NCBI RefSeq assembly: GCF_001720485.1
Contig: NZ_CP017114.1
Location: forward strand, 1,364,001 to 1,428,000
Direction of reading: 5' to 3'
Source of the DNA: Cobetia marina
Lineage (GTDB): Bacteria; Pseudomonadota; Gammaproteobacteria; Pseudomonadales; Halomonadaceae
Length of the DNA stretch: 64,000 bases
The notes under the pieces are model-generated. The model saw nothing but the letters and a program-made list of their open reading frames with translations, searched no databases and had not been told where the DNA came from. Below are positions 37,857 through 57,159 of the stretch, in pieces. Position numbers and translations under genes: made by a program. Position 1 is the stretch's first letter, and each line of letters starts with the position of its first letter.

Positions 37857-37888
37857 AAAAAAGGCCGCGATCACTCGCGGCCTTTTTT
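37857..37888. terminator. Bidirectional terminator
   Basis: A 14-bp stem, A6GGCCGCGA and TCGCGGCCT6, with a TCAC loop. Its + strand T tract runs into the yjbQ stop codon (37888-37890), so it serves both convergent genes. Confidence 0.93.
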
Positions 37889-38319
37889 CATTCCCCACTC
37901 AACGTCAAATACAGCCTGCGGCTGCCACCGTGGTCGCGGTGTTCGCCGAGCCAGATGCCTTGCCAGGTGCCGAGGGTGAGGCGATTGACGCCGCGGCGGG
38001 CTTCGACGGGTAGCGTGAGCTGGGTGCCGAGCAGGCTGGCGAGTACGTGGGCGGGCATGTCGTCATCGCCTTCCAGCGTGTGGCGGAAGTAGGGCAGGTT
38101 GCCGGGCACCAGGCGGCGCAGGAAGGCGTCCATGTCCTGACGCACGTCGGGGTCGGCATTCTCGTTGAGGGTCAGCGAGGCGGAGGTGTGCAACAGCTGC
38201 ACATGCAGCAGGCCGATACTGACCGGCGGCATTTTGGCCAACGCCTGCTCCACCTCGTCACTGATGAGGTGAAAACCGCGCTTGCGGGCGGAGAGGATGA
38301 GAGTGTCGCGTTGCCACAT
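37888..38319 (-). CDS. yjbQ: YjbQ family protein (UPF0047), 5' end duplicated by an islet
   Basis: A 143-residue member of the YjbQ/UPF0047 family, some of which have weak thiamin-phosphate-synthase-like activity; the cellular role is unclear. Landmarks are [44 protein letters not shown] and [18 protein letters not shown]. The first 94 nt are duplicated at 40251-40344, at the far side of an AT-rich islet that begins immediately upstream of this start codon. The complete gene therefore now depends on islet sequence for its promoter and ribosome-binding site (GGTAC 5-9 nt upstream). A minus-strand TATACT lies at 38397-38392. Confidence 0.92.
38226..38319. repeat. Left copy of the 94-bp direct repeat flanking the islet
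   Basis: This is the first 94 nt of the complete yjbQ. It matches 40251-40344 at 91 of 94 positions, the differences being single transitions at three places; two of them change codons (Ile/Thr and Lys/Glu). Identity stops sharply at the ATG on one side and after GCGGC on the other. Confidence 0.95.
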
Positions 38320-38340
38320 AAAAGTACCTATATTAACTGG

Positions 38341-38481
38341 TTGATAATTACTTTAGAATTTGGTGTGTTGGTAGGAAACTCCTTGATAGTCAGTATAGTA
38401 GTTTTGCTTTATAAGATTAAGGCTATTTTTTTACCGAGAAAATTGGTTAGAAGTTGTCTGCATGCTTATAACTTGCATTGA
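38341..38481 (+). CDS. Possible small hydrophobic protein or truncated remnant
   Basis: From a TTG at 38341 an open frame of 46 codons encodes one membrane helix ([22 protein letters not shown]) followed by a basic tail ([14 protein letters not shown]). It ends 26 bp before the next islet gene. The frame stays open leftward across the islet junction into antisense yjbQ, so it may be the 3' remnant of a larger gene cut at the junction instead of an intact small protein. No good ribosome-binding site was seen. Confidence 0.35.
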
Positions 38482-38507
38482 AATTTCTAGCGATAATGGA
38501 GGTTTTT

Positions 38508-39308
38508 ATGTTATTTTTAGCTGCTTTGAACAAGGCTGTCAGGAAGCCCGCACCTAGTCGGATTCCACTAAGTTTACCATCAGCTTCAAGTAATGATTTT
38601 TATTCAATTGAGCTTTCAAGAGATGACAGTAGGATTCTAGTGGTAGGGAAAGAGGAATTAGGTTTTAATTGTATTATTTTTGGCGATGAAGAACTCGGGA
38701 TTAGGAAGGTTTTGGATGTTGATAAAGGATACTGTTCACAATGCCGGCTAAGGATAGAACACTATTACCGAGGTTATCAATTTACATATACTTCAGCGGC
38801 TAAGTTTATCGTTCTTGACTTTATTAAGTGGCATAAAGTACTGGTTTTCAAAGATGGGCTTGATCAATCCTTATACAACTCACGAACTTTAGTTAGAGAG
38901 GAAAGGTTGGATGTTCTTAAATATCTGGTTGAAAAGAAAATCGAAGATGGAAGAGACTTTAATTCAATAACAATGGCGGTTGATAAGAAAACACGCAAAT
39001 GGTTTTATCATCCTGACAAAGATCGCTATCGAGTACATCTACAATTAATTTTAGATTCATTTGTAGAATCTGGTGACCTAAAAAAGCAAGAACATGGGTA
39101 TCGTGTAACAGGGAAGGCGCTAATCACGTTATCTGAGTATGAGTTGAATGTTCAGAGACATAATGACAGCTTGAAGTCAGCCAAGATGAGTAATAGGATA
39201 TCTAGTGCAATATTTTTTGTCGGTGTTTTAGGGATCGCGTCTCAATTATTTATGTGGTTTGTAAGTAATGAGGATAAGGTTTTGATTTTTATTGAAGGAT
39301 TAAAGTAG
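38508..39308 (+). CDS. Islet protein with C-terminal membrane helix, unknown family
   Basis: A 266-residue protein I do not recognise. Residues about 25-160 look like a soluble alpha/beta domain (FYSIELSRDDSRILVVG, KFIVLDFIKWHKVLVFKDG). Residues about 165-220 look like a winged-helix-type unit (RYRVHLQLILDSFVESGDLKKQEHGYRVTGKAL). One membrane helix lies near the C-terminus (about 236-256, ISSAIFFVGVLGIASQLFMWF). ATG at 38508 has a strong GGAGG at 38498-38502. Codon use is AT-rich, unlike the neighbours, indicating transfer. It faces the islet's other gene tail to tail. Confidence 0.8.
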   Translation: MLFLAALNKAVRKPAPSRIPLSLPSASSNDFYSIELSRDDSRILVVGKEELGFNCIIFGDEELGIRKVLDVDKGYCSQCRLRIEHYYRGYQFTYTSAAKFIVLDFIKWHKVLVFKDGLDQSLYNSRTLVREERLDVLKYLVEKKIEDGRDFNSITMAVDKKTRKWFYHPDKDRYRVHLQLILDSFVESGDLKKQEHGYRVTGKALITLSEYELNVQRHNDSLKSAKMSNRISSAIFFVGVLGIASQLFMWFVSNEDKVLIFIEGLK

Positions 39309-39414
39309 CCTTTTCTAAGTAAAAAGATCCACTTTTGGGGCAGGTATTCCTATTGTTTATAGCGCTTTCACATGCCGCTCAATCGGTTTGCATTTGCAAT
39401 TGTATAATTTAAAA

Positions 39415-39549
39415 TTAGCGGTCATGATCAAAACCTAACACTGTAATAGCCTCCAGCAAGGAGTAGTTATCTGTCATTTTTTCACTAGAAGTCTTAATAG
39501 GCGTCATTTGATTTGCTGGTAATGGAGTCGCAATATTATTAATAACCAT
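39415..39549 (-). CDS. Small reading frame overlapping the islet membrane gene
   Basis: A 44-codon frame starts with ATG at 39549, inside the last codons of the 39539-40189 gene (11-bp overlap, shifted frame), and stops at 39415. The product is polar (MVINNIATPLPANQMTP at the start, ending in VLGFDHDR) with no membrane segment. The overlap suggests coupled translation or a frameshifted extension of the larger gene. No family is recognised. Confidence 0.4.
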   Translation of the reverse strand: MVINNIATPLPANQMTPIKTSSEKMTDNYSLLEAITVLGFDHDR

Positions 39550-40189
39550 CTATCTTCTTAAGAATTTCATTTCTCGCAACGATGGATACTACCGGTATGT
39601 TGAGATATTGCTCTCGTAACACTATTTGATCAAAAAATTGCATGTCTCTAAGTGAAAGACCCAAAAGTACTGATAAGGGCATAGCACCTGCAAACATTAA
39701 GCTTTTAATAGTCTCGCCGGCTAATTTTGTTACAGCTCCATCATGTACTATACTGAACCCATCTCCCACCGTTGACACTACTATAGCATAAGATACATAA
39801 TATATGATTATTATAATTAGCCACATGCCTGTGCGGAAACGAGATTGATTGCGCCTACTTAGTTTGCTTATGAGGTTATCGATTTCGGTTATTTTTTTGG
39901 TATATTTAAAGCACTGAGTAGCAAACTTGTAGTCGTCAAATCGTGCTGTTAATAGATGTATTGTCCTTATGCTCACCTCTAGGTTGTATATTCTTTTAAA
40001 TTCACGTCTTAGGTTAATTTCTTGATGAGGTTGAATGTTGTCTATATTTGTTATCTCATTCGTATGTGTGAATAGGCGGTATAAGCTATCTCGGGTATAT
40101 TGCTTATTTTGAATCTTGCTATATTTAAAGGTTACGTACAGAGTTACTAGGGAGACAAGAATGCTAGCCGCAAAATATAAGAAATCCAT
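39539..40189 (-). CDS. Islet membrane protein, unknown family
   Basis: A 216-residue protein I do not recognise. One helix lies at the N-terminus (FLYFAASILVSLVTLYVTF, about 3-21), then a roughly 95-residue charged helical region (KIQNKQYTRDSLYRLF through RRNQSRFR), then a strong helix (WLIIIIIYYVSYAIVVS, about 122-139) and another hydrophobic stretch (about 163-185, LMFAGAMPLSVLLGLSL). ATG at 40189 follows AGAGGAATGAA. AT-rich codons match the islet. The convergent arrangement with the 38508 gene argues against one operon, so any joint function is inference. Confidence 0.8.
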   Translation of the reverse strand: MDFLYFAASILVSLVTLYVTFKYSKIQNKQYTRDSLYRLFTHTNEITNIDNIQPHQEINLRREFKRIYNLEVSIRTIHLLTARFDDYKFATQCFKYTKKITEIDNLISKLSRRNQSRFRTGMWLIIIIIYYVSYAIVVSTVGDGFSIVHDGAVTKLAGETIKSLMFAGAMPLSVLLGLSLRDMQFFDQIVLREQYLNIPVVSIVARNEILKKIDGY

Positions 40190-40221
40190 TTCATTCCTCT
40201 TTTATAATATTTTTATGAGAA

Positions 40222-40344
40222 TTATATAGCATCCGAATACAAGTAGAGAAGCGGCATTTCGGCCAATGCCTGCTCCACCTCGTCACTGATGAGGTGAAAA
40301 CCGCGCTTGCGGGCGGAGAGGGTGAGAGTGTCGCGTTGCCACAT
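40222..40344 (-). pseudogene. yjbQ: Displaced 5' stub of yjbQ
   Basis: The first 31 codons match YjbQ, then the frame enters islet sequence and stops after 40 codons at 40222. It retains what looks like the native upstream region: AGGG about 7 nt before ATG and TTGTCA further up. It is the remnant left when the islet entered, and might still be translated as a short truncated product. Confidence 0.85.
40251..40344. repeat. Right copy of the 94-bp direct repeat flanking the islet
   Basis: Partner of 38226-38319 (91/94 identical). Beyond the ATG end the sequence continues into native intergenic DNA and the lysR terminator. Confidence 0.95.
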
Positions 40345-41401: not shown

Positions 41402-41660
41402 CGAATAGGTCCGGTTGTTCAGGGGGTCGGGGTGTGTCGTCAGGGAAACACCCACCTTGTACGGGCCATGTCGGGCCCGTCGCAGCGCAGGGGCTGCACA
41501 ACGGATTGCCTGTCGATGACCGTGCCCCTCGTACCGCGGGGGGATGCCCCGGGCAAAGACGCGCTCATCGATCAACAACCGCTCCTGTCAGTCGTGCACC
41601 GCAGCGCACGTCGACAGGTCTTGCACTTGATTCTTGCCTTCAGCTCTTGCGGCCGGCTCG

Positions 41661-41738
41661 TGAAGCCCGGTCTTGGGGCTCAGTCTTGAAGCCTGGTCTT
41701 GAAGCCCGGTCTTGAAAACCGGTCTCGAAACCCGGTTT
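41661..41738. repeat. 13-bp tandem repeat, six units
   Basis: Six adjacent 13-bp units based on TGAAGCCCGGTCT start at 41661, 41674, 41687, 41700, 41713 and 41726; unit 2 is the most diverged and unit 6 ends in a CGAAACC-CGGTTTCG dyad. Noncoding. Confidence 0.88.
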
Positions 41739-55875: not shown

Positions 55876-56199
55876 ATGAAGTCTCCTTGATGAGCATTGC
55901 CGGTCATCTGCCAGTCAGGGCGCTGCGATGACTGGGCTCGGTGATGGGTGGCCAAGGCCAGCGTCGTGCATGCCGGATGCCGTGCTGTCTCTGACCATCG
56001 GCAACACTGCTGCTGAGAGTTGCGTCGTGGTGTGCGTGAGCAAGCTCACGCCTGTTCCATGATGTGCAGGGCGCCGTCCCTGATACCGTCCGTAGCATCT
56101 TCCCTGGCGCAGCCTCGTCCTGAGGTGTTCCTGCCATGGCCGCATTCCCTGGCCACCGTATTGCTCGCTTTCGAGGTGATGACATCGCCGTCGTCATGA

Positions 56200-56219
56200 G
56201 AAATGTGCATGCACATTTC
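56200..56219. promoter_or_regulatory. Perfect 20-bp palindrome, operator candidate
   Basis: GAAATGTGCA followed immediately by its exact complement TGCACATTTC. It lies about 325 bp from the gfcA start and 940 bp from wza. Length and symmetry suit a dimeric regulator, but the protein is not known. Confidence 0.65.
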
Positions 56220-56581
56220 AGACGGACGCCTCTCTCTATCCCCCCGTGAAAGCGAGGCCCATGTTAACCAGAAAATGTCGGCTGTCTAGCGAGAGAGGTC
56301 GCGTCGATGTGGCGTTGATGGAAAGCGAAATATTTATGTAAAAAAGAGTAATCGTGGTGTGGATAAAAGCAGACATGCCTGTCGATCTTTCAGACACCGC
56401 GGGCGCTGGACTTGATCCGCATGGCTGCTGAAATTCTTGTGAAGGATGTGTCGATTTGCAGACGAACCCAGCGTTTCACTGTCTGTAATCGGCTACGTCG
56501 CCATGTGGCGGTTAGCGACACACGTCGTGCTGATGATGATACAAAGCAATGTTTTTATTGGATTTTTGTAACAGCGCTCGA

Positions 56582-56609
56582 TTGGCGAGCGGCGTGGATC
56601 AGGTAAAAT
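56582..56609 (+). promoter_or_regulatory. Promoter candidate for the wza operon
   Basis: TTGGCG (56582-56587), a 16-bp spacer and TAAAAT (56604-56609). If used, the mRNA has about a 545-nt leader before wza, beginning with a 7-bp hairpin ATGGAGT/ACTCCAT (56619-56638). Confidence 0.5.
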
Positions 56610-57159
56610 GCGCAACAGATGGAGTCTGGTCACTCCATTCTTGATGCCCATGAAGACGACGCAGCGGACAGTGCGATAAACGTTGCCATCACGTTGTAGA
56701 GCCTGTGCCGTCAGGTGGGTGTGGTGGGCACTGTCGATGGCGTGAATGTGTGCCTGTAAAAGGTATCATCGATGTGCAGCAGAGACGTGATTTTATGAGG
56801 AAGACTTCGTGTAAATCGAAGGATCCTCAATCACATTCATCGTCTTCATGGGCCAGCATTCGCGTGATTGCCCAAGGGAGTGTTCGCGCCATTGCCAGAC
56901 AGGCGCAAGCCGTCATGCAAGGGGCGGGACGCCAGCAGACGCAAGTACTCAAGCAAACCAAGACATGACACCAGCACGAGGGATCACCCTCGGCCCGAGG
57001 TCACCGTCGTTGCAACTGTCGTTGCACATGGGGCCATCGCGTTACGCAAGGCGAACCGAAGACGTTATCGAATTGGTCCCGGCGTCAGCGTGCGGCGGGA
57101 ATGATCGGGGCAGCCTCGCATCAATCGCTGCTCGGGTCTGTCGACTCAACGGACTTCAG

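Follow-up and report, generated by a model that had tools for sequence, protein, structure and literature searches.

Elements that replace the start of the gene into which they insert have been described for dusA and prfC. In the dusA islands, the start of dusA is replaced by one that the island supplies (PMC4482086; Farrugia 2015), and the same replacement is described for IMEVchUSA3, an element of the dusA 5' end that leaves a diverged N-terminus (61% over 35 aa; PMC8409611). The dusA-specific islands encode an integrase and possess 21-bp repeats (PMC4482086, PMC8409611). SXT at prfC likewise replaces the 5' end of its target gene, whereby a new promoter and a new N-terminus are provided (PMC8409611), and the SXT/R391 ICEs are described as conjugative elements of about 100 kb. 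CIMEs are defined as elements that have lost their integration and transfer genes and kept attL and attR (PMC5704250).

The locus reported here is a small islet at the 5' end of yjbQ in Cobetia marina, contained in a window (the whole stretch of DNA that was analysed) of 64,000 nucleotides. Compared with what these sources describe, it resembles the dusA islands in that it lies at a housekeeping gene's 5' end, displaces the native start and brings a new start region from the element, but it is bounded by 94 bp at 97% identity and is devoid of an integrase, whereas the dusA islands have 21-bp repeats and encode one. With SXT/R391 at prfC it has in common that the 5' end of the target gene is replaced, though at 1.9 kb instead of about 100 kb of conjugative DNA. 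As a CIME it would represent DNA enclosed by attL and attR from which integration and transfer genes are missing; in contrast to the CIMEs described, neither a parent element nor a related attachment site was found for it in the collections searched. Taken feature by feature, the islet combines flanking repeats at a site that is uninterrupted in 5/5 relatives, the absence of integrase and transfer genes and a gene start replaced in frame, while neither an integrase of its own (as in the dusA and prfC islands) nor attC, a dif-like junction site or a match to a PADLOC model was identified.

Repeats, inserted block and empty sites

The earlier note had described two 94-bp direct repeats, identical at 91 of 94 positions and corresponding to the first 94 nt of yjbQ, which enclose about 1.93 kb of AT-rich DNA in a GC-rich chromosome. 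This description was recovered to the base (Table 1): the copies differ at positions 38235, 38242 and 38297, and the GC content of the block contrasts with 63.2% for the window, marking its base composition as foreign. Comparison with relatives confirmed that identity of the repeats stops at the base immediately before the ATG on the upstream side. The genome, a single contig of 4.18 Mb, contains the block once. One side carries the complete gene and the other, as claimed, a 40-codon stub, 31 codons of which derive from yjbQ and the following nine from the block; comparison with congeneric species identified the DNA upstream of the stub as native.

Table 1. Features of the yjbQ locus (positions refer to the window)
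Feature	Coordinates	Strand	Description
Complete yjbQ	37888..38319	-	143 aa; UPF0047, secondary thiamine-phosphate synthase family; PF01894 9.3e-33, TIGR00149 2.8e-38
Left 94-bp repeat	38226..38319	-	First 94 nt of complete yjbQ
Inserted AT-rich block	38320..40250	.	1931 bp, GC 35.1%, single copy
New yjbQ upstream region from block	38320..38359	-	AGGT before ATG, read by eye
ORF A	38508..39308	+	266 aa; phrog_7611 1.5e-17
ORF B	39539..40189	-	216 aa, three hydrophobic stretches, nearly orphan
Right 94-bp repeat	40251..40344	-	Start of yjbQ stub, joined to native upstream DNA

The repeat pair around the AT-rich block is more than chance. A scan for direct repeats with a length of 20 nt or more, spaced 400-12000 bp apart and enclosing DNA of at most 50% GC, returned a single pair (44 nt, a terminator-like hairpin) in 1.6 Mb of the 4.18 Mb genome outside the window, and the same 1.6 Mb contain 10 AT-rich islands. 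Within the window, four pairs were obtained in a scan for 30-nt repeats, and AT-rich DNA is enclosed by the yjbQ pair only.

All six Cobetia species examined possess the repeat, with two copies in the genome under study and one in each of the other five. In 5/5 of the latter, homologous DNA runs without a break from the region preceding yjbQ across the ATG and on into the remainder of the gene, and the matches between the C. marina genome and these relatives fall into two pieces that overlap within the repeat (by 94, 94, 94, 92 and 90 nt). Judged from these alignments, the block is an insertion, its empty site being clean in five of five congeneric species, which agrees with the insertion at the yjbQ 5' end proposed earlier. 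Two outcomes that would speak against it, namely the duplication without the block and an ancestral block, were sought in the five other species and neither was seen; an ancestral origin is ruled out by the five empty sites.

Some further observations were made during these scans. A second AT-rich islet (36% GC) resides at positions 1815710-1817348 of the same genome (L152:7710-9348, G000:C1) and comprises a single ORF of 432 aa that resembles a membrane protein and is enclosed by two terminator-like repeats of 44 nt (40/44); in two genomes (G001 and G004) the match of the neighbouring gene ends short of the repeat. It was set aside as a second such case, as its repeat is a terminator-like hairpin and a match is also present in G002. 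In the window, six overlapping 39-nt matches with a spacing of 13 nt locate to positions 41632-41735, between a LysR-like gene and the next large ORF, and a second G+C dip (0.539) is found at 56001-57000.

Origin of the junctions

Within the block, the ORF list and profile searches revealed no integrase, in agreement with the earlier note, and no transfer genes; there are only two sizeable ORFs, neither of which matches recombinases, and as ORFs A and B occupy 1452 of the 1931 bp there is no room for an integrase. Given the empty sites in 5/5 relatives, the repeat edge at the ATG, the lack of room for an integrase and the kin of ORF A on mobile DNA (see below), the islet was considered to be an integrative element of CIME type that is non-autonomous or has decayed and that restores the 5' end of its target, a reading that is about as likely as not. 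The block would then be a small integrative element without an integrase of its own, either decayed or built for movement in trans, and would lie between attL and attR generated by recombination at the yjbQ 5' end. The junctions inside the 94 bp may have been made by a site-specific recombinase whose gene is located elsewhere or has meanwhile been lost. The attachment site of the element would copy yjbQ from the crossover to the start codon, hence the element would have brought its own copy of the gene start and the host yjbQ would survive, with the cargo possibly providing an accessory trait such as phage defence. The reading of the repeats as att sites is favoured because their edge falls exactly at the ATG, as would be expected if the border copy was kept as coding sequence only.

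The insertion left yjbQ complete with its 143 codons in frame, displaced the stub and cost the host no bases. The AGGT preceding the ATG (Table 1) could serve as ribosome-binding site, a candidate by its motif. A promoter scan of the block located the nearest promoter-like site on the yjbQ strand at 38542-38513 and none close upstream of yjbQ; since five promoter-like sites were returned in all, with 5.5 expected, no promoter is shown for the restored gene. Base by base, the copy within the complete yjbQ contains two bases, at nt 23 and nt 85, that none of the five relatives possesses and that both alter the protein (T8I and E29K), and the remaining 338 nt contain six more private bases, two of them altering the protein. 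In the stub copy every base is found in at least one of the five relatives, leaving no private base. These counts are too small to separate element-borne from host mutations.

Another origin of the junctions has to be weighed at this point. If the insertion was illegitimate and duplicated its target, a foreign fragment would have been caught in a break with long overhangs, the filling-in of which duplicated 94 bp, so that neither an element nor an att site would be involved. Such an origin is rather improbable but keeps some weight, because a long, near-identical border is expected from it as well. It would be one precise event without loss of host bases, it fits the near-identity of the copies over the full 94 bp, and it is in keeping with a block that is present in single copy, with no recombinase nearby and no other occupied site seen. 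Against it, an edge exactly on the start codon would be a rare coincidence for a randomly placed edge, even if an intact yjbQ was selected, and both private changes affect the functional gene while the dead stub has none, which is the reverse of plain decay, although three differences prove nothing.

Several observations speak against the integrative element too. No site recombinase was found, 0/80 further yjbQ loci carry an insertion, and the repeat DNA gave no blastn match in phages and plasmids and no exact 39-base match in viral contigs; moreover, 94 bp at 97% identity stand against the 21-bp sites of the dusA islands and the diverged gene start of the one studied, and the restored yjbQ lacks a recognized promoter. 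As to the recombinase, the whole genome contains four tyrosine-recombinase (PF00589) matches, the nearest of which is 97 kb away from the block, and none was found among them for the yjbQ site. The repeat includes a 21-bp imperfect palindrome, which could be a core site; an equally good one was present in 38/655 control windows, and by two other palindrome measures controls did so still more commonly (442/655 and 272/655), for which reason the palindrome was rejected as proof of a core site. Of the element suggested by the earlier note, the insertion, the restored gene and the missing integrase stand, while a recombinase was not found among the genome's PF00589 matches and other cargo was seen at 0/80 loci.

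Elements without an integrase that make use of XerCD are known. An integron cassette or a XerCD-dependent element placed in yjbQ might therefore be considered, as such XerCD-using elements exist and the closest ORF A relatives with readable context are integron cassettes. Pairs of RYYYAAC...GTTRRRY, which we take to be the attC core motif, 50-150 bp apart were absent from either strand of the block, in a scan of limited sensitivity (of five integron loci, three gave 7 sites at 10/22 paired bases, whereas L022 and L184 gave none), and an integron cassette was rejected on this basis. The best match at the junctions to what we presume to be the dif sequence was 16/28, with ten controls at 14-17, and a XerCD site was likewise discarded, the match lying within the control range. 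Neither route would account for a 94-bp duplication of yjbQ, and both are hardly credible. A plasmid source of the block DNA was also rejected, as the block gave no DNA match to plasmid records.

yjbQ as a target in the Halomonadaceae

Other cargo between the same borders, for which the earlier note had suggested looking, was sought in the family. A protein search gave yjbQ-like matches in 244/275 Halomonadaceae genomes (E<=1, weak matches counted). Among the matches listed, the first 84 places outside the genus were taken, from which four (G264, G258, G108 and G261) were removed to yield 80 loci, each with about 11-15 kb of upstream DNA, so that longer elements would be missed. Scored were a same-strand copy of at least 40 nt of the gene's own first 130 nt, or a G+C content of the last 1.5 kb more than 0.12 below that of the locus. 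A second yjbQ stub or an AT-rich 1.5 kb directly upstream was found in 0/80 of these loci, and with them no other cargo between the same 94-bp borders; the window itself, used as positive control, showed both the repeat pair and the AT-rich upstream DNA. Hence, yjbQ is no common target within the 80-locus sample. A looser scan of the first 60 loci gave repeat matches of 15-39 nt on either strand in 10 loci, which were treated as chance; in 12 loci, low-G+C stretches of 500 bp were present at some place upstream, one of them (L060) extending over about 4 kb some 10 kb upstream of yjbQ.

Searched as DNA, the 94-bp repeat matched 15/275 genomes of the family; outside the genus these were nine genomes with pieces of 23-52 nt only, which renders this search uninformative on distant genera. 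Blastn of the repeat against phages and plasmids gave no match, and the viral contigs searched lacked an exact 39-base pattern derived from it. When the 31 yjbQ codons were used as protein, five records of the phage collection matched at about 50% identity (E 2e-4 to 2e-2). Three short, unannotated, phage-named records (OR845277.1, OR851359.1 and MT837887.1) encode a YjbQ-like N-terminus of about 50% identity; the N-termini in phage records may be host DNA within the records or copies of gene starts. In the literature, searched over part of the licences, no paper was found that joins yjbQ with a genomic island and an attachment site; one expression study mentions both yjbQ and an integrase.

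Relatives of the cargo and implications

The AlphaFold2 model of ORF A (pLDDT 80.2, pTM 0.45, 28 sequences) begins with a beta-rich region, continues with a winged-helix-like part and closes with a long C-terminal helix that includes a hydrophobic stretch; accordingly modelled, the protein is predicted to possess an N-terminal beta domain, a winged-helix-like part and a C-terminal membrane helix. Foldseek searches of PDB and BFVD gave no match at E<=0.001, and the best PDB matches include weak, partial ones to winged-helix regulators; with these scores and no match at this threshold, a fold-based function was rejected. The protein search returned a near-twin (P0001, 98% identical, on a contig of 1977 bp) and six other matches, and the profile search 30, the twin included. 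The nearest named relative is 70% identical and comes from Cobetia sp. QF-1. ORF B, read as a membrane protein, is nearly identical to a single entry of the protein database (P0008, on a 916-bp contig), was found in 1/250 genomes of the family, this being its own, and is without relatives in plasmids or phages. The existence of P0001, P0008 and the QF-1 protein would suit a block that arose in a different strain in the distant past and spread secondarily by homologous recombination, entering on a longer donor fragment or via the 94-bp homology. This route, which would account for the spread of the block and not for its origin, is improbable.

In genome contigs, ORF A relatives were identified at seven loci from four Marinobacter species and Halomonas llamarensis, whereby the homologues on integron cassettes (Marinobacter and H. 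llamarensis) are 50-52% identical to ORF A. These cassettes are bounded by attC-like sites, in contrast to the yjbQ block, in which the scan saw no such site and which contains a second ORF. Around the relatives, sequences were assigned as attC-like by motifs that we presume to be diagnostic. At four loci (L019, L020, L021 and L023) the ORF A-like gene is preceded by differing attC-like sequences ending in GTTAGGC and is followed by one common attC-like sequence of about 80 nt, which gives the picture of one putative cassette placed in several arrays; repeats were observed at L022 as well. In Marinobacter shengliensis the same ORF A cassette was observed on three contigs, near their ends (L022, L023 and L024), which suggests multiple copies within integron arrays.

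A class-level search detected ORF A in 2/369 genomes, the own one included, the other relative (L184) residing in an array of attC-like palindromes, as judged by eye. Within the Halomonadaceae 6/275 genomes were positive, again including the own. Among them, the relative in G187 (L206) has the same protein start as that of H. llamarensis; attC-like stretches, judged by eye from translations, adjoin the relatives in G242 (L207) and G006 (L208), the latter being split over two frames; and that in G133 (L210) lies within an AT-rich stretch. In G052 (L209) the relative is situated between phage genes and an apparently cut Mg-chelatase (ComM-like) gene (PF13335 1.7e-30, PF01078 7.3e-23), with terminase- and tape-measure-like phage genes judged by eye (L212), and it probably sits at the end of a prophage or island. 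Next to this relative is a protein of 196 aa that shows no similarity in sequence to ORF B.

Four Vibrio phage records carry a relative at 32% identity, the one examined being 11.9 kb in length and filed under Tubulavirales (inovirus-like). Plasmid records matching ORF A number 29; in the four examined, the annotated neighbours differ, one plasmid having insertion-sequence transposases on both sides of the relative and another a site-specific integrase gene two genes away. Peptide patterns of ORF A or B matched 10, 11 and 51 stretches in viral contigs, none of which is a relative. Integron cassettes, plasmids, an inovirus-like record and what is probably a prophage end all carry relatives of ORF A, which places it in mobile company, in line with the mobile cargo suggested by the earlier note.

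Accessory genes of integrons, phages and plasmids often serve defence. The defence cassette proposed earlier gained no support from PADLOC models, as neither ORF A nor ORF B matched at E<=1; two ORF A relatives (P0002 and P0005) gave marginal matches (0.013 and 0.0079). By analogy with such genes, a defence role of the cargo would be a guess.

On a broader scale, the islet could exemplify a class of minimal, recombinase-less cargo units that use a core gene's start codon as docking point via a near-identical copy of its first hundred bases, move through a recombinase acting in trans or through recombination over short homology, and trade cargo with integrons, filamentous phages and plasmids; we consider such a class very doubtful. 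If the insertion was a one-off illegitimate event, the islet would be an instructive look-alike of gene-start elements. The ORF A family merits a test for an accessory or defensive role. Should the repeats be true att sites, yjbQ would join dusA and prfC as a gene whose start serves as docking site, and the islet would be a very small unit of this kind that lacks an integrase.
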